Assembly: GCA_023264975.1 (NCBI GenBank)
Contig: JAHFUS010000001.1
Coordinates: 1 to 61,112, forward strand
Length of the DNA: 61,112 bases
Origin: Actinomycetes bacterium
GTDB lineage: Bacteria > Actinomycetota > Acidimicrobiia > Acidimicrobiales > GCA-2861595
Direction: 5' to 3'
Shown here: positions 39,430 through 48,518 of the stretch, in pieces
Numbering within the stretch: the first letter of the stretch is position 1
How the letters are laid out: the number at the start of each line of letters is the position of its first letter
Position numbers and translations under genes: made by a program
The notes under the pieces: generated by a model
Seen by the model: the letters and a program-made list of their open reading frames with translations, nothing else
Databases searched by the model: none
What the model was told of the DNA's origin: nothing

Positions 39430-40251
39430 TCAGAAGATGGCGAGCAGGGCGCGGGCGCCCGTGTAGATGGCGAGGGCGACCAGCAGCGCTGCGAAGGCGC
39501 GCTGCAGCGACTCGGGCTCGACCCGGTCGGCGACCCGCTTGCCGGAGCCCACCCCGGCGGTGGCCGCCGCAGTGAAGACCAGGATGGTTGTCCAGTCGAC
39601 GCTGCCGGCCCCGGCCCGGGCGGCGAGGGCGACCGCCGTGTTGACGGCGATAACGAGCAGCGACGTCCCGATGGCCACACCCATCGGGAACTCGAGCACC
39701 AGGACCAGGGCGGGGACGATCACGAACCCGCCGCCGACACCAAACAGGCCGGTCAGGAAACCCACGGCGGTGCCGACGGCGCCGATCCTCGCCATCCGGC
39801 CCGGTGCCAGAGTCCGCGTGCGGGTCCGGACGGAACCGCCTCGCGGCGTCTCGGCCAGGGCGCCCGCCTCGCCGCCGCGGGTGCAGCTCGGGCAGCCAAC
39901 GACGATCCGCCAGGCGGCGACGAGGATGAGCCCCGCGAAGGCAAGGAGCAGCACGTCGCCGTCGAGGCGCCGGTTCAAGGCCGATCCGGCGACGGACCCG
40001 CCGATACCGACGATACCGAACACCAGCCCCTGGGCGACCCTGACCCGTCCGGCCCGCCAGTGTCCGTAGGCGCCGATCAGTGAAGCGACCCCGACCACCA
40101 CCAGCGACGTTGTCGTGGCCGCTGACGGTGTCTGACCGGCGACGAAGACGAGCACGGGGACGGCCAGGATCGATCCGCCCCCTCCGAGGGCGCCGAGTGA
40201 CACGCCGACGAGGAACCCCAGCGGTGACGCCAGCAGCGCCCGGGTACTCAC
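39430..40251 (-). CDS. TauE/SafE-family sulfur-anion exporter
   Basis: A 273-residue permease with about eight helices in two repeats. Each repeat begins with the family's Gly-rich turn: FLVGVSLGALGGGGSILAVP and FLTGLFGVGGGFVIVPAL. TauE/SafE proteins export sulfite, sulfonates or related organosulfur anions. A central cytoplasmic loop has CPSCTRGG, a possible thiol site. The GTG start is 31 bases after the stop of the MBL-rhodanese gene, so it is the third gene of a rhodanese/dioxygenase/exporter operon and would remove sulfite or thiosulfate formed by it. Confidence 0.9.
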   Translation of the reverse strand: MSTRALLASPLGFLVGVSLGALGGGGSILAVPVLVFVAGQTPSAATTTSLVVVGVASLIGAYGHWRAGRVRVAQGLVFGIVGIGGSVAGSALNRRLDGDVLLLAFAGLILVAAWRIVVGCPSCTRGGEAGALAETPRGGSVRTRTRTLAPGRMARIGAVGTAVGFLTGLFGVGGGFVIVPALVLVLEFPMGVAIGTSLLVIAVNTAVALAARAGAGSVDWTTILVFTAAATAGVGSGKRVADRVEPESLQRAFAALLVALAIYTGARALLAIF

Positions 40252-40282: not shown

Positions 40283-41650
40283 TCAGCTCTCGCTGCTGGT
40301 GACCCCGAGGGAGTCGTGCTTGGCGGCGGCGGCCCATTCGTCGTCGACAGCCACCACCGAGCGGCCGGCCCGGTCCAGCAGCGACGCCGCGATCGAGGCC
40401 CGGTAGCCGGAGGCGCAGTGGACCCACACCTGGGCGTCGGGCAACTCGTCGAGGCGTTCCTCGAGCTCGTGCAGGGGGATGTGCAGGGCGCCGTCGACGC
40501 GCCCCTCGGCCCACTCGTCGTTGCGGCGGACGTCCACCACGACGACGGCTTCGTCGACGCGGGCGTCGGCGAGATCGGCAAAGGTAGCGGTCCGGTAGGA
40601 GCGGATGTCACCGCCCGAGGCCCACGTTTCGATGCCGCCGTCGGCGCCGGCGGCGGGCCGGTCGATACCGATGCGGACCATCTGGCGCTGCGCCTCCGCG
40701 ACCTGTTCAGCGGTGTCGCCGACGAGGATGACCGGGGTGCCCCAGCGCAGCGTCCACCCCAGGTAGGTGGCGAAAGAGTCCCCAACCTCCAGGTTGACAG
40801 TGCCGGCGAGGTGGTCGCCGGCGAACGCCGTCCGCGACCGCAGATCCACGACCCACTCGCCGGCGTCGATCCGGCGGCGGATCTCGGCCGGGTCGACCCG
40901 CTCCGGCGGGGAGAGATCGACCGGCGCCGGGCCGGCGCGGTTGATGGGGGCCATGTGGGCGTAGTAGCGGGGGTACGCGGCCAGGCCGCTTAGGAGCTTG
41001 GCGACGAATGCGTCCTCGTCGTCGAGGGTCAACGCCAGATTCGACCGGCGTTCCTGGCCGATGGTGCTCGCGTCCGAACCGCTCGACGCCGACGAGGAGC
41101 AGAAGCTCCCGAACCCATGTGTCGGGTGCACGCCGACCTCGCCCGGCAGCTCCCTGGCCAGGCGGCGCACCGAGCGGAACTGGGCCCGGGTCAACTCCTC
41201 GGTGGTCTCGGTGCTGATTAGGTCGGTGCGCCCGACGGTGCCGTAGAGCATCGACCCGCCGGTGAAGGCCGCCACCGGCTCGCCGTCGTGCACCACCACA
41301 TAGGACAGGTGGTGCGGAGTGTGGCCGGGCGTGTGCGCCGCCCGCACGATCAGGTCGCCGACCACGAAGTCGTCGCCGCCCCGCGCCCCGGTGTGCTCAT
41401 AGGCGACCTCGTCGGCGGCGGCCAGCACGTAGGCGGCACCGGTGCGGCGAGCCAGCTCGAGACCGCCGGTCACGTAGTCATTGTGTAGGTGCGTCTCGAA
41501 CACGTGCGTGAGCCGCAGGTCGCGCTCGGTGAGCGGCGCCAAGATGCGGTCGATATCGCGCTGGGGGTCGATGACCGCGGCCACATCGCCGTCCACGAGC
41601 ATGTAGCTGCGGTCGCCCAACGCTGAGGTCTCGATCGTGATGATCTCCAT
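40283..41650 (-). CDS. MBL-fold persulfide dioxygenase fused to two rhodanese domains
   Basis: A 455-residue protein. The N-terminal 240 residues form a metallo-beta-lactamase-fold ETHE1-like domain (ETHLHNDYVTGG, AAHTPGHTPHHLSYVV, GVHPTHGFGSFCSSS). Two rhodanese repeats follow: the first (about 265-360) lacks a catalytic Cys, while the second has VWVHCASGYRAS with the active Cys. Such fusions (CstB or PRF type) oxidise glutathione, CoA or other low-molecular-weight persulfides and pass sulfane sulfur to sulfite, giving thiosulfate. The ATG has GGGAG upstream. It lies 13 bases after the stand-alone rhodanese and before TauE, downstream of a CstR-type operator. Confidence 0.92.
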   Translation of the reverse strand: MEIITIETSALGDRSYMLVDGDVAAVIDPQRDIDRILAPLTERDLRLTHVFETHLHNDYVTGGLELARRTGAAYVLAAADEVAYEHTGARGGDDFVVGDLIVRAAHTPGHTPHHLSYVVVHDGEPVAAFTGGSMLYGTVGRTDLISTETTEELTRAQFRSVRRLARELPGEVGVHPTHGFGSFCSSSASSGSDASTIGQERRSNLALTLDDEDAFVAKLLSGLAAYPRYYAHMAPINRAGPAPVDLSPPERVDPAEIRRRIDAGEWVVDLRSRTAFAGDHLAGTVNLEVGDSFATYLGWTLRWGTPVILVGDTAEQVAEAQRQMVRIGIDRPAAGADGGIETWASGGDIRSYRTATFADLADARVDEAVVVVDVRRNDEWAEGRVDGALHIPLHELEERLDELPDAQVWVHCASGYRASIAASLLDRAGRSVVAVDDEWAAAAKHDSLGVTSSES

Positions 41651-41663
41651 CTCTCCCGCTCCG

Positions 41664-42008
41664 TCAGGCGACGGTGCCGGCGGTGCCGTCTCCGCGCACC
41701 ACCGGCAGGTCCGCTTCGGCCCACGCCGTCATCCCACCGGCGACGTTGCGAACGTCGGTCCCGCACGCCGCCAGGACCTCGGTCGCCTTGGCCGACCGGG
41801 CGCCGCTGCGGCACACGGCCAGAACCTGCCGACCGTCGAAGCGAGAGGCGGCGTCGCTCACATCGGCCAGCGGGACGTGGATGGCGCCCGGCGCGTGGCC
41901 GGCGGCCCATTCATCGTCCTCGCGGACATCCACCAGGATCGCCCCCTGGTCCTGCAGGCCAGCCGCTGCTTTCGGGGTGACCTCGTCGTTGTTCTGGCGT
42001 CGGAACAC
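41664..42008 (-). CDS. Single-domain rhodanese
   Basis: A 114-residue rhodanese. It has GAILVDVREDDEWAAGHAPG, HVPLADVSD, and the active loop VLAVCRSGARSAKA with catalytic Cys. It would carry sulfane sulfur in the cytoplasm. Two adjacent GTG codons (42011 and 42008) are possible starts. AGGAGG at 42015-42020 on the complement gives six-base spacing to GTG 42008, which decides the start. It is the first gene of the operon that continues into the dioxygenase fusion and TauE. Its promoter region faces the CstR-like regulator gene. Confidence 0.92.
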   Translation of the reverse strand: MFRRQNNDEVTPKAAAGLQDQGAILVDVREDDEWAAGHAPGAIHVPLADVSDAASRFDGRQVLAVCRSGARSAKATEVLAACGTDVRNVAGGMTAWAEADLPVVRGDGTAGTVA

Positions 42009-42018
42009 CACACACCTC

Positions 42019-42050
42019 CTGCTCGGGTACCACACGCTGCTCGGGTACCA
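42019..42050. repeat. Direct repeat upstream of the rhodanese gene
   Basis: CTGCTCGGGTACCA occurs at 42019-42032 and 42037-42050, 18 bp apart. It overlaps the ribosome-binding site of the rhodanese gene on the minus strand and lies between that gene and the CstR operator. A second regulator site or a slippage duplication are both possible. Confidence 0.6.
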
Positions 42051-42058
42051 ACGCCAAC

Positions 42059-42080
42059 GGTATACCCCCATGGGTATACC
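42059..42080. promoter_or_regulatory. CstR/CsoR-type operator, perfect palindrome
   Basis: GGTATACCC CCAT GGGTATACC is a perfect 9-bp inverted repeat with a 4-bp centre, the known shape of CsoR/CstR operators (ATACCC-N4-GGGTAT). It is centred between the divergent rhodanese and CstR-like genes and should let the regulator repress both operons until persulfide or copper is sensed. Confidence 0.9.
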
Positions 42081-42123
42081 GCCAAACGGTAGGATAGGCG
42101 AGCAAGACCCGTCACCGCTCGTA

Positions 42124-42143
42124 GGAATACCCCCACCCGTACC
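42124..42143. promoter_or_regulatory. Degenerate second CstR-like site next to the regulator gene
   Basis: GGAATACCCCCACCCGTACC resembles the perfect operator at 42059-42080 with several mismatches and lies 20 bp before the regulator ATG. It may give weaker autoregulation. Confidence 0.4.
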
Positions 42144-42163
42144 TCTCGTTTGAGAAAGGCACC

Positions 42164-42433
42164 ATGGACCTCACCGTACAGACCATCGACGACCTGCTCA
42201 AGCGGCTCCGCCGGATCGAGGGCCAGGTGCGCGGCATCCAGCAGATGCTCCTGGACGGCCGCGAATGCCGCGACGTCGTCACCCAGATCTCCGCCGCCAG
42301 CAAGGCCCTCGACCAGGCCGGCTTCAAACTCGTCGCCTCCGGACTCACCTACTGCCTCAACGACCCCGAACGAGCCGCCCGTGAGGGCTACGACATCGAC
42401 GACGTCCAGAAGATGTTCATGAAGCTGGCGTAG
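42164..42433 (+). CDS. cstR: CstR-like persulfide-sensing repressor (CsoR/RcnR family)
   Basis: An 89-residue all-helical CsoR/RcnR-family protein. It has DLLKRLRRIEGQVRGIQQML with the conserved RIEGQVRG, and two Cys at positions 35 (RECRDVVTQ) and 64 (LTYCLND). Copper-sensing CsoR proteins need a His four residues before the second Cys; here that position is Gly60, so copper binding is unlikely and the paired-Cys pattern of the persulfide sensor CstR is met. The dioxygenase/rhodanese/TauE operon beside it and the perfect operator agree. It probably binds as a tetramer and derepresses when the two Cys form a di- or trisulfide bridge. Confidence 0.92.
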   Translation: MDLTVQTIDDLLKRLRRIEGQVRGIQQMLLDGRECRDVVTQISAASKALDQAGFKLVASGLTYCLNDPERAAREGYDIDDVQKMFMKLA

Positions 42434-42597: not shown

Positions 42598-43389
42598 TCA
42601 TGCAAAGGCGCCGTCGGGTTCGCGGTGCTTGGTCGCGAGAATGCTGATGCTCTTGACGCCGAAGGTGTCGGTGGCGCCTTGGGCCGAGTCGGAGATGAAA
42701 TGGTACGCAGGGTTCTCCTGGACGGTCTCGACCTGGAGCCCGGCGGCCTCGATGGCGCCGCGGTAGTCGTCCTGTTGCATGGCGCCGCCGATGCAGGAGG
42801 ACCAGAGGTTGACGTCGCACACGATCGCCTCGGTGAGCGGACGCTCGGTGACGATATCGGAGATGGACATGCGGCCGCCGGGCTCGAGGATTCGGGCGAT
42901 CTCGCGGAACACCGCCACCTTGTCGCTGCAGAGGTTGATCACACCGTTGCTGATGACTGCGCTGGCAGATTCGTCGGGGACGGGGGCGTGTTCGATGTAG
43001 CCGCGCTCGAACCGGGCGTTGGCGAATCCGTCGCGGTCGGCGAGCCGGCGCGCCTTGGCCAGCTGGGCGTCGGTCATGTCGATCCCGATCACCTCGCCGT
43101 CGGCACCGACATGGCGGGCGGCGAGGAAGGCGTCCATCCCCGAGCCGCTACCGAGGTCGACGACCCGGTCGCCCGGCTGGAGGTCGGCGAGGGCGAGGTG
43201 GTGGCCGACGCCGGCGAAGGAGTCGATGGCTTCGGGTGGGACCTGGTCGAGGTCGCCCGTCGGGTAGCCGAGGCGGGCCGCGAGCCCGTAGCCCATCTCG
43301 AAGTGGAACGTGCCGTGCGGCTCGTCGGCCACGGCCTGGTACATCGCCTTGACCTTGTCGCGCAGGCCCTCGACGTCGATGCTGGTCAT
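42598..43389 (-). CDS. ArsM-like SAM-dependent methyltransferase without the canonical Cys set
   Basis: A 263-residue methyltransferase with GDRVVDLGSGSGMDAFLAA as motif I. It has ArsM-like features: GTFHFEMGY near the N-terminus, ISNGVINLCSDKVAVFREI and NLWSSCIGGAMQQDDY. Arsenite methyltransferases use Cys before motif I and Cys in SNCVINLS; here the first is absent and the second has moved (INLC). The late LW-x-x-C is kept. The substrate may therefore not be arsenite; selenite, sulfide or another thiophile is conceivable. The second of two ATGs (43389) is preferred, with GAGAGGG six bases upstream. It lies 18 bases after the DsrE-like gene. Confidence 0.85.
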   Translation of the reverse strand: MTSIDVEGLRDKVKAMYQAVADEPHGTFHFEMGYGLAARLGYPTGDLDQVPPEAIDSFAGVGHHLALADLQPGDRVVDLGSGSGMDAFLAARHVGADGEVIGIDMTDAQLAKARRLADRDGFANARFERGYIEHAPVPDESASAVISNGVINLCSDKVAVFREIARILEPGGRMSISDIVTERPLTEAIVCDVNLWSSCIGGAMQQDDYRGAIEAAGLQVETVQENPAYHFISDSAQGATDTFGVKSISILATKHREPDGAFA

Positions 43390-43407
43390 GCTCATCCCTC
43401 TCGGTTG

Positions 43408-43773
43408 TCAGTAGCTGAAGGTGGTGGCGGGTTCGTCGCCGATCCAGTTCCACATGGGCGCGGTGCCCTGGATCTCGGCGCCGGTGATGAGGCGGTCCTT
43501 GTCGAGGTGCTTGGCGTTGAAGCAGATCGGGCAGACGTAGTAGTTGCCGCCGGCGGCCTCGTAGCGCTTCATCAGATCGGTGATGGAGGGGCAGCCGTCG
43601 CAGGCGACGCCGACGGCGGTGCCGTCGACTGCAAGGCGGACGGCTTCTTTGGTGAGGAACATGAGCGTGGGCCGGCCCGATTCAGCGGCGCCGACGGCGA
43701 CAAGCAGGGCGACCGTCACCTTCTCGCTGTCCTCGAGTCCTGTGCTCAGGCTGATGACTGCCTTGCCGGCCAT
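43408..43773 (-). CDS. DsrE-family sulfur-relay protein
   Basis: A 121-residue DsrE/TusD-like protein. VISLSTGLEDSEKVTVALLVAVGAA and the loop LMFLTKEAVRLAV follow the family. Two Cys pairs, ACDGCPSITDL and YYVCPICFNAK, offer persulfide or metal sites; the first lies at the usual sulfur-carrier position. It begins AAGGGAGAAGGTC-ATG. It forms an operon with the ArsM-like methyltransferase and may hand sulfane sulfur (or a heavier chalcogen) on to a partner. Confidence 0.85.
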   Translation of the reverse strand: MAGKAVISLSTGLEDSEKVTVALLVAVGAAESGRPTLMFLTKEAVRLAVDGTAVGVACDGCPSITDLMKRYEAAGGNYYVCPICFNAKHLDKDRLITGAEIQGTAPMWNWIGDEPATTFSY

Positions 43774-43853: not shown

Positions 43854-45461
43854 CTACAGATCGAGTGGTTCGAGGGTGCCGAGCAGGCCGTGCTGCAGCG
43901 CGAACAGCGTGGCAGTCGATCGGGTGCTGGCGCCGGTCTTGGTGTAGATCCGCTCGATGTGGGTCTCGGCCGTCTTCGGTGCGATCGCGAGCTGTCGGGC
44001 GACCTGGCGGGTCGACCCGCCACGGGCGATGAGGATCAGCACCTCGATCTCGCGTGGGGTGAGCCCGGCCGGTCCGCTGCGGCGCTTGCCGCGCGCCTGG
44101 CCGGCGGCGGCCAGGACGGCGTCGACGGCCTCGGCATCGAGGCGCCCGGCCCGCACGTCGGCACGGAGCTCGCTCACCGCCTGCGTCGGTGCGAGTGCCG
44201 GCCGGTGGGCGCGGGGTTCGGTCATGGCCTGGAACCCGCAGGCCGCCGCCAGCAGCCGGGCGGTGGCCGGGATCGCGGTGGCGGTGAGCCCGCGGGGGTA
44301 GCCGGAGCCGTCGCCGCGTTCGTGGGTGAGCGATGCGATGGCGCCGACGCGGGCCAGCGGCGCCGGCCGGGCGAGCATCCGGTCGGCGTAGTACGGGTGC
44401 ATCCGCAGCCGCTCCCGTTCCGCGGCGGTGAGCGGTCCGGGCTTGTCCAGGATGGTGGCGGGGATGCCGTGCAAGCCGAGGTCATGGACCAGGCCTGCAC
44501 GACGCACGGCCGTGATCTCCGCAGCGGGGAGGCCGCGTTCGGTGGCGGCGAGGGCGACGAGCTCGGCGACGGCCCGGGAATGGCCGGCCCTGGACGCAGA
44601 ACGCAGGTCGGTGAAGTCTGCGATCGCTTCGAGGGCGTTGTCGAGCTTTTCCTCGCTCAGTCGCTGCTGGAGCGCGGGTTCGGCATCGATGAGCGCGGCC
44701 CAGTCGTGTTCGGCGTCAGGCTCGCCCAGGACGTCGGTGGCCCGGGCGCAGAACTCGTCCACGAGGCTGGGATCGAAGTGCTTGCCCCGCTTGGCTCGGG
44801 CGATCTCGACGGCCGCGTCGACGCCACCGGCACGGTGGTGGACCTCGACGGTGTCGGCGAGGTGGAACAGGCGCATCGTCAGGGCGATCGCCTCGCCACC
44901 GACATCGCCCGGCACACCTTTGCCGTCCCAGCGGGTGAACACCTGGTGCAGCGGCGCACACACGTCCTCGCCGAGCTCGAACCGCTCGGCCATGCGGGAG
45001 GTGGTGAGGCAGTGCGACATCAGGCCCCGCTGGACTGCCTTCCCACCCGTGATGACGAGGTTGGCACCGACCCGGATCCGGCGGAGGGCGGGGCTTCCCG
45101 AGCCGACGTGGCGGAGCATGAAGCCGAGCATCGGGAGCCCGGCGAAGTCGACGTCGTAGCTGTCGGCCCGGAAGGCGATGTCGTCACCGAACAGGGCCGC
45201 GACCTCTGGGGTGTCGGCCACACAACCCACCCACGCCAGCGTGACCGCGTAGTAGAGGGCGCTGCGCCCGCCCGCCTCGACCCCTACATGCTCGCCGAGC
45301 GCGGCCGCGATGCGCCAAGCCCTCAGCACGTGATCCATCGGTTGACCGAGACCGAGGTCGGTGGCGAGAGAGAACGAGCCGACGAGGTCGGCCAACCGGA
45401 TGCCGCTGTCGGCGGGCCCCTTCGACGGGGCCGGTCGCGAGTTGGTCACCGCCACGGCCAC
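43854..45461 (-). CDS. HD-GYP-type protein with a C-terminal LuxR DNA-binding domain
   Basis: A 535-residue regulator. The N-terminal half has a helical HD-related region (LMSHCLTTSRMAERFELGEDV, RWDGKGVPGDVGGEAIAL). The middle has a second HD-GYP-like domain (AGLVHDLGLHGIPATILDK, HERGDGSGYPRGLTATAIP), and the last 65 residues are a LuxR/GerE helix-turn-helix (LTPREIEVLILIARGGST, KTAETHIERIYTKTG). HD-GYP domains hydrolyse cyclic di-GMP; the first copy lacks several ligand residues. Joining HD-GYP to LuxR is unusual. It is co-directional with the DsrE/methyltransferase pair 80 bases downstream and probably controls it. GTG 45461 and two near in-frame GTGs are possible starts. Confidence 0.85.
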   Translation of the reverse strand: MAVAVTNSRPAPSKGPADSGIRLADLVGSFSLATDLGLGQPMDHVLRAWRIAAALGEHVGVEAGGRSALYYAVTLAWVGCVADTPEVAALFGDDIAFRADSYDVDFAGLPMLGFMLRHVGSGSPALRRIRVGANLVITGGKAVQRGLMSHCLTTSRMAERFELGEDVCAPLHQVFTRWDGKGVPGDVGGEAIALTMRLFHLADTVEVHHRAGGVDAAVEIARAKRGKHFDPSLVDEFCARATDVLGEPDAEHDWAALIDAEPALQQRLSEEKLDNALEAIADFTDLRSASRAGHSRAVAELVALAATERGLPAAEITAVRRAGLVHDLGLHGIPATILDKPGPLTAAERERLRMHPYYADRMLARPAPLARVGAIASLTHERGDGSGYPRGLTATAIPATARLLAAACGFQAMTEPRAHRPALAPTQAVSELRADVRAGRLDAEAVDAVLAAAGQARGKRRSGPAGLTPREIEVLILIARGGSTRQVARQLAIAPKTAETHIERIYTKTGASTRSTATLFALQHGLLGTLEPLDL

Positions 45462-46087: not shown

Positions 46088-46762
46088 TCATGCACCGGCC
46101 GCGACGGGGAGTCCGGCGCGGCGCCATTCCGGGAAGCCGTCCTCGAGGCGGGCGGCATGGAAGCCGCGCTTGCGGAGCTCGCGGACGGCCTCGTCCGCGT
46201 AGACGCAGTACGGGCCCCGGCAGTAGGCGACGACCTGACTGTCGGCCGGGAGCGCCTTGAGATGCTTGCGCAGCTCGGTGATCGGGACCGACCGTGCCCC
46301 GGCGATGTGCCCCGCGGTGAACTCGGCCTCTGGGCGGACGTCGAGCACCACGAGCGTTCGATCCCTGAGGCGGGCGGCGAGCTCGGCGCGGTCGACGGTG
46401 TCGATGCCGTCGCGATCCCCGAGGTAGGCGGCGGCCAGCTTCTCAAAGCCGGCGCCGTGGGCTTCGGCGACATCTCGCACCGCCGCCCAGAGCTCAGCGA
46501 CCCGATCGCTGGCGACGCGGTAGTGGATGCGGGTGCCGTCGCGTCGCGTCGTCACCAGCCCGGCCCGAGCCAGCGCCCGCAGATGGTGCGACGTGTTGGC
46601 GACGCTCTGGTCGAGCTCGCCGGCGATCTCCTCGACCGAGCGCTCCCCCTGCGCGAGCACGTCGACGATTTCGGCCCGCCGGCCCGAGCCGAGCGCTTTG
46701 GCGACCTCGGCGAGCCCGTCGAACAGCGCATCCTTGGCGGCCCGGTCACCCATGGGCCCCAT
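46088..46762 (-). CDS. ArsR-type repressor fused to a rhodanese domain
   Basis: A protein of about 224 residues. Residues 10-100 are an ArsR winged helix (GRRAEIVDVLAQGERSVEEI, SVANTSHHLRALARAGLVTT). Residues 125-220 are a rhodanese with the catalytic loop QVVAYCRGPYCVYADEAV. Such fusions can sense sulfane sulfur by persulfidation of the rhodanese or of Cys in the DNA-binding part, but no ArsR-type metal site Cys pair is visible. Start ATG 46762 or 46753; a TTG 46789 is less likely. It is divergent from a damaged gene and the second MBL-rhodanese/MFS operon, with a dyad between. Confidence 0.88.
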   Translation of the reverse strand: MGPMGDRAAKDALFDGLAEVAKALGSGRRAEIVDVLAQGERSVEEIAGELDQSVANTSHHLRALARAGLVTTRRDGTRIHYRVASDRVAELWAAVRDVAEAHGAGFEKLAAAYLGDRDGIDTVDRAELAARLRDRTLVVLDVRPEAEFTAGHIAGARSVPITELRKHLKALPADSQVVAYCRGPYCVYADEAVRELRKRGFHAARLEDGFPEWRRAGLPVAAGA

Positions 46763-47163: not shown

Positions 47164-48518
47164 GCGAACCGCGGTTGGACATCATCGCCGTCGTCGACGA
47201 GGGTCTCGGTCACTCCTCCTACGTCGTCGCGCTCGGAGACGGCTCCGCGCTCGTCGTCGACCCGGCCCGCCTCCCGGACCGGCAACGCCGGCTCGCCACG
47301 GAACGCGGCTGGACACTGCGATGGACTGCGGACAGCCACTCGCACGCCGACTACATCTCGGGCAGCCCCGAGCTCGCTACCCAGGGCGCGACCTTCCTCG
47401 CATCGCGAGGCGCCGACCTCGAGGTAGCGCACAGGCCGATCGAACCCGGCGAGGCGGTGGTGGTGGCCTCCGGTACCGAGCTTCGGGCCATCCCCACCCC
47501 GGGCCACACGCCCGATCACCTCGCGTACCTGCTCACTGTCGACGGACAGGCCGAGGCCCTGTTCTCCGGCGGGTCGCTCATGGTCGGCGCCCTAGGACGG
47601 ACCGACCTGCTCGGCGACGAGCGTTGCGATGAACTGACCCGGTCGTTGTTCCGGGCACTTCGCACCGAGGTGATGACGCTGCCCGACGACCTTGCCGTGT
47701 ACCCGACGCACGGGGCCGGGTCGTTCTGCTCCGCACCGGCCCGTGCCGGCCGCACGACCACGATCGGGATAGAGCGGGCCACCAATCCGCTGCTCGCGAT
47801 CGACGACGAGGACCGCTTCGTCGCCGAGATGCTCGCCGGTCTCGGCACGTTCCCCGGCTATTTCCGCGAGCTCCCCGAACGCAACCGCCGCGGTCCACGT
47901 CTCTACTCCGCACCCCCCACCCTCCCCCGCCTCGACGTCGCCGCAGTCCGGACGAGGCTCTCCGAAGGGGCGGCGCTCGTCGACGCCCGACGCATCGACG
48001 CGTTCGCCGCCGCGCACGTGACCGGGTCGATGTCGATCGAGCACCGACCGGTGTTCGCGAGCTGGCTCGGTTGGCTCGTCGCGCTCGACCGGCCGATCGT
48101 GTTCGTCCTCGACGACACCACCGACCGCGACGCGCTGGTCCGCCAGTCCCTCACGGTCGGCCACGAGAACCTGCTCGGCGAGCTCGACGGCGGCGTCGAC
48201 GCCTGGGCGGTAGCCGGCCTCCCCGTCGAGCAGACGACGATCGTCGGTCCGGGCGAGGTGCGCGGAACATTGCTCGACGTGCGTCAGTCCCTCGAATGGG
48301 CGGCTGGGCACGTGCCCGGCTCGGTCCACGTCGAGCTGGCTTCGCTGGCCTCGACCCCAACGGATGATCGTCCGGTCACGGTGCTGTGCGGGCACGGCGA
48401 GCGGGCCATGACCGGGGCCAGCATCCTCCAGGCCGCCGGCCACTCCGGCGTTGCGGTGCTCCGGGGTGGACCGGGCGACGTTGCCGCCGCCATGGGAACG
48501 ACCCTCGAGACCGGATGA
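47160..48518 (+). CDS. MBL-fold hydrolase/persulfide dioxygenase-like protein with two rhodanese domains
   Basis: A 452-residue protein with the same architecture as the gene at 40283-41650 but clearly diverged. The MBL domain has DSHSHADYISG (HxHxD metal motif), AIPTPGHTPDHLAYLL and YPTHGAGSFCSAP. The first rhodanese (about 265-355) lacks a Cys, and the second has VTVLCGHGERAMTGAS with the active Cys. It should oxidise persulfides or shuttle sulfane sulfur. GTG 47160 overlaps the upstream stop by four bases, and its stop overlaps the MFS start as ATGA. Its presence alongside a second copy argues for different substrates or different inducers (ArsR-rhodanese here, CstR there). Confidence 0.9.
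   Translation: MSEPRLDIIAVVDEGLGHSSYVVALGDGSALVVDPARLPDRQRRLATERGWTLRWTADSHSHADYISGSPELATQGATFLASRGADLEVAHRPIEPGEAVVVASGTELRAIPTPGHTPDHLAYLLTVDGQAEALFSGGSLMVGALGRTDLLGDERCDELTRSLFRALRTEVMTLPDDLAVYPTHGAGSFCSAPARAGRTTTIGIERATNPLLAIDDEDRFVAEMLAGLGTFPGYFRELPERNRRGPRLYSAPPTLPRLDVAAVRTRLSEGAALVDARRIDAFAAAHVTGSMSIEHRPVFASWLGWLVALDRPIVFVLDDTTDRDALVRQSLTVGHENLLGELDGGVDAWAVAGLPVEQTTIVGPGEVRGTLLDVRQSLEWAAGHVPGSVHVELASLASTPTDDRPVTVLCGHGERAMTGASILQAAGHSGVAVLRGGPGDVAAAMGTTLETG

Follow-up and report, generated by a model that had tools for sequence, protein, structure and literature searches.

The closest described system to the locus analysed here is the ScCsoR (SCO0620) circuit of Streptomyces coelicolor. 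This circuit, published in 2020, combines a CsoR-like repressor, a rhodanese, a persulfide dioxygenase and TauE with the operator ATACCn6GGTAT (PMC7533328). Experiments in S. coelicolor tested the repression, its relief by polysulfide and the requirement for both cysteines, and CsoR-like genes were reported near pdo genes in 773 Streptomyces genomes (PMC7533328). ScCsoR was reported to form Cys37-SSH alone (PMC7533328), whereas di- to tetrasulfide bridges are described for Staphylococcus CstR (PMC9774590). The Staphylococcus cst locus, taken here from the S. saprophyticus plasmid NZ_CP035295, has the order tauE-cstR // cstA-cstB-sqr. The copper-sensing CsoR of S. lividans has the consensus ATATACCCCTNAGGGGTATAT; TAC-X9-GTA is described as shared by several CsoR sites, and the dyad with a spacing of seven bases (N7) corresponds to the type-2 consensus (PMC3902906). 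In a single notation, ATACCn6GGTAT becomes TACC-N6-GGTA and the S. lividans consensus becomes TACC-N7-GGTA. A further two-cysteine CsoR-family regulator of sulfur oxidation is TTHA1953 from Thermus thermophilus, for which an operator and the response to several reagents have been described (PMC10318464).

The window, a stretch of 61,112 nucleotides from an Actinomycetes bacterium (contig JAHFUS010000001.1), contains a CsoR-family repressor of 89 aa on the plus strand (42164..42433). With 83.5 bits against PF02583, the CsoR/RcnR family model (curated cut-off 22.8), the assignment of the protein to this family is certain on its profile score. The repressor is of the ScCsoR/CstR type, with the residues Cys35, Gly60 and Cys64. 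A rhodanese, a dioxygenase and a TauE gene had been proposed to lie alongside, and all three were recovered on the minus strand by their domains. From head to tail, the divergent operon consists of a single-domain rhodanese (41664..42008, 114 aa, with Cys66 and Cys82; PF00581, 65.6 bits), a CstB-like protein predicted to be a persulfide dioxygenase-sulfurtransferase (40283..41650, 455 aa, with Cys184 and Cys412; PF00753 followed by two PF00581 stretches) and a TauE/SafE-family exporter (39430..40251, 273 aa, from its probable start codon; PF01925, 162.3 bits). Since the gaps between them are only 13 and 31 bp, the three genes probably form one transcript. The rhodanese probably starts at the GTG at 42008, judging by an AGGAGG motif at 42020-42015.

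The 455-aa protein was 30.7% identical to the annotated S. saprophyticus CstB over 420 columns, and its best matching PDB chains, 3tp9 and 3r2u, aligned over almost the full length. It possesses the CstB architecture of an MBL domain, a rhodanese domain without cysteine and a rhodanese domain with one, the middle domain being cysteine-free because there is no cysteine between positions 184 and 412. Cys184 and Cys412 aligned with Cys201, the MBL-domain cysteine of CstB, and with Cys408. CstB Cys20 had no counterpart in this protein, nor in two named actinobacterial relatives. The protein is thus CstB-like, and its persulfide dioxygenase-sulfurtransferase activity is predicted.

Convergent with the repressor, the minus strand (42598-43773) carries an ArsM-like methyltransferase (223.8 bits, below the cut-off of 263) and a DsrE-like protein narrowly below its Pfam cut-off. 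Beyond them lies an HD-domain protein with a LuxR-type helix-turn-helix at its C-terminus (43854-45461, minus strand). Further along, an ArsR-type regulator with a fused rhodanese domain (46088-46759, minus strand) lies beside a second CstB-like MBL-rhodanese protein (47166-48518, plus strand), which was 37.2% identical to the first. These two genes are possibly a second sulfur-responsive unit. The second CstB-like gene was considered as a member of the circuit and set aside, as it stands beside the ArsR-rhodanese fusion and no ATACC-N6-GGTAT occurs in the window besides the operator of the repressor locus.

That operator, GGTATACCCCCATGGGTATACC, occupies 42059..42080 in the intergenic region and is a perfect palindrome of 22 bp, GGTATACCC-CCAT-GGGTATACC, with no mismatch to GGTATACCC-N4-GGGTATACC and a TACC-N6-GGTA dyad at its heart. 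The ScCsoR motif ATACCn6GGTAT was found within it, at 42062-42077 in the divergent promoter region. A 22-bp palindrome centred between the divergent genes had been claimed in the initial annotation; the palindrome is indeed perfect and intergenic, but it is off-centre, with 50 bp to the probable GTG of the rhodanese and 83 bp to the ATG of the repressor (42164). Its description there as a CstR-type operator agreed with its N6 spacing, which matches sulfur-type and not copper-type sites. Even with three mismatches allowed, the window contained no second match to the palindrome, and none of 100 shuffled sequences gave any. In the 3.78-Mb genome, the inner 18 bp (TATACCC-N4-GGGTATA) occurred once with up to two mismatches permitted, and the reversed-pattern control not at all. 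The short core TACCC-N4-GGGTA was at chance level genome-wide, with three places against five for its reversed control, and the other two places fell within long open frames. Together, the uniqueness of the full palindrome and the intragenic position of these two matches suggest one operator serving two transcripts; a wider regulon was rejected on the same grounds.

A search of 41950-42200 with the sigma-70 consensus did not find a sigma-70-type promoter around the operator. Two copies of CTGCTCGGGTACC, 18 bp apart, were observed in the rhodanese leader (42019-42049) beside the probable ribosome-binding site, and GGAATACCCCCACCCGTACC (42124-42143), upstream of the repressor gene, resembles a degenerate second half-operator. 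A TACC-N7-GGTA dyad, of copper spacing and lacking the G/C tracts, was present at 42077-42091, where it re-uses the right-hand TACC of the operator. It may be a chance occurrence, since the genome holds 17 such tract-less dyads and the reversed control 21.

The overlapping N7 dyad is one of the few features that would suit a copper sensor, in which Cu(I) would be bound by the two cysteines without a histidine and the sulfur genes would belong to a copper response. The repressor also belongs to the same protein family as the copper sensors, has a related operator and matched the RicR (copper-sensor) model with 57.9 bits, far below the cut-off of 175. However, the annotated Staphylococcus CstR matched this model equally weakly (55.9 bits). 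Alignment with the PDB chains 4m1p and 4adz placed Gly60 at the position of their histidine and confirmed Cys35 and Cys64, bearing out the residue pattern proposed at the outset, so that the repressor has Cys35-Gly60-Cys64 in place of the Cys-His-Cys copper ligand set. Likewise, the palindrome has N6 spacing and not the N7 dyad (TAC-X9-GTA) of copper CsoR, apart from the tract-less dyad at its right end, and no copper gene was detected among the neighbours examined. A family search of the 98.2%-complete genome recovered one other PF02583 member (C1:59136-59372), which is of the C-H-C type, has an N7 dyad just upstream and scored 101.1 bits against RicR. The post of copper regulator thus seems filled by this paralogue, which most likely performs copper sensing in the same cell, and a copper-sensing role for the window repressor is very unlikely. 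It shares with copper CsoR (S. lividans 4adz and the paralogue) the family, the fold, both cysteines and a TAC/GTA dyad with G/C tracts, and differs in the histidine, the N7 spacing and the copper genes that often stand alongside (21/42). A formaldehyde sensor resembling FrmR, or a nickel/cobalt sensor resembling RcnR, is less credible still: the matches to these models (28.6 and 28.2 bits) fell far short of the required 133 and 138 bits, and no formaldehyde or Ni/Co efflux gene was found among the neighbours examined. NCBIfam returned no CstR model, even for the annotated CstR.

The spacing of the two cysteines, 29 residues, and the lack of the copper histidine are shared with CstR (Cys31 and Cys60 in S. 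saprophyticus cstR). However, the Asn that occupied the histidine position in all six readable Bacillota relatives is replaced by Gly60. The window locus further resembles the Staphylococcus cst locus in its N6 operator, its divergent sulfur genes, TauE and CstB, and differs in that the latter has cstA and sqr in the operon and TauE beside the repressor. A complete Staphylococcus-like cst circuit, as initially annotated, was therefore not recovered: there is no cstA-like multidomain protein among the ORFs examined next to the repressor, no clear sqr, and Gly instead of the Asn of the six Bacillota CstR-type proteins. The Staphylococcus SQR query gave no match in the 98.2%-complete genome in a search run without a positive control. 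With the NCBIfam SQR model, a single fragment scored 20.9 bits against a cut-off of 525, and matches below the cut-off were present likewise in 14 out of 14 control genomes.

The likeness to the S. coelicolor circuit is closer. Besides sharing its parts and its operator, that circuit has a rhodanese gene that diverges from the repressor gene, a distance of 29 residues between the two cysteines and, in the Streptomyces plasmid relatives, Gly at the histidine position; the ScCsoR residues were compared through the published numbering and through these relatives. Two named relatives on Streptomyces plasmids carry Cys37-Gly62-Cys66, and Cys37 and Cys66 correspond to the numbering of the two cysteines that ScCsoR needs (PMC7533328). 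In S. coelicolor, the dioxygenase and tauE share a transcript driven by a separate promoter that bears two sites (PMC7533328), while in the window the dioxygenase and tauE come after the rhodanese and there is a single operator. Judged by sequence, the nearest match is the ScCsoR circuit and not the complete Staphylococcus cst operon, the locus being placed there by its shared set of parts, the Cys37/Cys66 numbering and a common set of 84 rows in the tree. By analogy, it would work like CstR and yet would not be a Staphylococcus-type CstR. This kind of circuit was already known from Streptomyces, and the initial annotation was in substance right about the likely function and wrong about the nearest relative and the novelty.

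The tree in question comprised 189 proteins over 93 columns. The smallest supported set containing the window protein had 84 rows, all of them non-His (SH-aLRT 95), and the Streptomyces SAT1 relative likewise had a set of equal size and support. The window protein and its Streptomyces relatives are accordingly found in a common clade, as far as a quick tree with few resolved forks can place them. Staphylococcus CstR had no supported place near the window protein in this tree. Many forks were not resolved, and the histidine label requires five changes.

Of 296 genomes from the phylum that were searched with the protein, 214 had a match, the best besides the window's own being 73% identical. In a scan of named records (best 80 loci), MAGs of Acidimicrobiia, Acidimicrobiaceae and Microthrixaceae were on top, and Ferrithrix thermotolerans reached 62%. 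On these matches the host probably belongs in or near Acidimicrobiia. The assignment of such a circuit to an actinobacterium was supported. Two MAG contigs titled Bifidobacterium breve (L093 and L097) carried repressors 60-63% identical to that of the window; their titles look wrong.

Neighbouring genes were surveyed in 40 regions, the 80 named loci, the paralogue and the window. The 40 regions consisted of the first 20 places of the list of relatives, in order, with 13 more and 7 His-type regions that we chose ourselves. One representative was kept per identical 64-column core, leaving 118 distinct CsoR-family genes (59 C-G-C, 42 C-H-C and 17 other). CstB, a rhodanese or TauE was detected within 6 kb of 41 of the 75 non-His genes and of one of the 42 His genes. 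For a nearby P-type ATPase motif, the counts were 3/75 and 21/42, respectively; these figures favour look-alikes and miss other genes, since the window's own proteins were used for detection and many contigs were short. L040, the lone His gene close to a sulfur gene, has a Gly gene on the same contig. In one actinobacterial genome (G050; L050, L051 and L053), three or more Gly-type repressors were present, each accompanied by an N6 operator at its gene and an N6 pair about 2.3 kb upstream, and no CstB-like neighbour was detected beside these repressors.

The spacing of the dyad followed the residue class. Within 1.5 kb of non-His repressors, N6 was found for 60/79 (first set) and 27/34 (second, less similar set), and N7 was found near 33/45 and 14/23 His repressors. 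The reverse combinations were rare (N7 near non-His, 6/79 and 3/34; N6 near His, 3/45 and 0/23). In these counts, identical aligned proteins were dropped and four rows, two per set, in which a Cys was missing or unaligned, were classed apart. The window and its paralogue belong to the first set, as do three plasmid loci from named records (L154-L156). The second comprises the next 60 places down the list of relatives, skipping places already used and one at a contig end (G070); Gly is less dominant there, its 34 non-His proteins including 12 with Gly and 12 with Arg. When whole loci were counted, with duplicates kept and the two loci with both classes (L040 and L095) set aside, N6 was present in 63/75 non-His and 4/45 His loci, N7 in 6/75 and 38/45, and every other spacing (N2-N5 and N8-N12) in at most 8/75 and 4/45. 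For C-G-C proteins alone, N6 was found in 53 out of 61 (first set) and 12 out of 12 (second set).

Named plasmid regions, chosen by hand for variety (3 of 387 and 9 of 413 matching records), gave N6 within 3 kb at all six readable Asn-type Bacillota loci, N7 at both copper loci and N6 in all three Gly-type actinobacterial loci (L154-L156, also counted in the first set). One of the Asn-type loci (L225) had a distant N7 dyad in addition to N6. A CstR-like gene with internal stops was observed, unannotated, on a B. subtilis plasmid (L222:3001-3239), where N6 dyads remain. Twelve genomes contained both classes. Six of these had N6 at the non-His and N7 at the His gene, including that of the window with its Gly repressor and His paralogue; five had no dyad on one or both sides, and the remaining one, G058, showed N7 at the Gly gene and no dyad at the His gene. 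Other exceptions were two C-T-C loci with N7 (L102 and L103), a C-H-C locus with N6 (L115) and three C-S-C loci with both. About one third of the His proteins (12/45 and 9/23) lacked an N7 dyad. Six C-F-C proteins, from Thermaceae records, had neither spacing, in keeping with the different operator described for TTHA1953, TACNNTACNNNNGTANNGTA (PMC10318464). Since the rule tracks two large clades, it reflects one or a few old evolutionary events seen many times, and the 189-protein tree offers only two independent pairs on supported branches for judging the link between residue and spacing.

These results suggest that sulfur sensors and copper sensors of this family are set apart by a one-base difference in the DNA switch. 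It is about an even chance that paralogues are kept apart on DNA by this 1-bp difference in dyad spacing (N6 or N7), together with Gly in place of the Asn wedge in the actinobacterial branch. The residue four positions before the second cysteine was Gly in ScCsoR-type relatives and Asn in Staphylococcus-type CstR, and it is the position at which Asn is exchanged for Ala between the PDB chains 7mq1 and 7mq3. Fakhoury in 2021 reportedly described an Asn "wedge" between the two cysteines of CstR. As a hypothesis, Gly in place of this wedge could explain why ScCsoR reportedly stops at the Cys37 persulfide and CstR proceeds to bridges. The N6/N7 rule was not found in print by literature searches, which did not extend to key CstR papers.

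We consider it highly probable that the repressor is an autorepressor of the RHOD-PDO-TauE operon that is released by persulfide or polysulfide. The parts and their order, the residue pattern, the operator with its spacing and the clade are present in the sequence; DNA binding, effector, chemistry and enzyme activity would follow published work on relatives. The reduced repressor would bind the N6 palindrome at 42059-42080 and keep its own gene and the divergent rhodanese-CstB-like-TauE operon off. Persulfide or polysulfide would modify Cys35, with Cys64 as its partner, and the repressor would dissociate from its site. The rhodanese and the CstB-like enzyme would then transfer and oxidise sulfane sulfur, TauE would export the oxidised product, and, with the signal lowered, newly made repressor would close the loop. 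The exact and unique operator identical to the ScCsoR site, the C-G-C pattern, the set of genes, the neighbours across the class, the spacing by class and the C-H-C paralogue all argue for this sulfane-sulfur reading, while the behaviour of TTHA1953, the unsupported placement of CstR, the overlapping N7 dyad and the lack of a sigma-70 site count against it.

The behaviour of TTHA1953 would suit a general thiol-oxidant sensor, which would form inter-subunit disulfides in response to peroxide, disulfide stress or electrophiles and for which sulfane sulfur would be one of several triggers. Binding of TTHA1953 to DNA was kept with NaHS and was lost with H2O2 and Cu(II) under non-reducing conditions (PMC10318464), and the CstR regulon of S. 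aureus is reported to be quinone-induced as well (PMC6798810). TTHA1953 differs from the window repressor not only in its operator and in this lack of release by NaHS, but also in having sox targets distant from its gene (PMC10318464). The genes controlled in the window, however, are specific for sulfane sulfur and sulfite, and the related repressor of S. coelicolor was released by polysulfide alone (PMC7533328). A general thiol-oxidant sensor is therefore unlikely, and release by sulfane sulfur remains the preferred reading.

The locus carries a sulfane-sulfur circuit of the S. coelicolor type into Acidimicrobiia-like actinobacteria, among which relatives sharing this operator are common. For the CsoR family, many records of which say only "metal-sensitive transcriptional regulator", the fourth residue ahead of the second cysteine, together with the number of bases within the dyad, offers a cheap rule to tell sulfur from copper sensors. 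This rule and the Gly/Asn contrast are the part that a specialist might not expect, and they raise the question of whether one base pair would insulate two paralogues in a shared cytoplasm.
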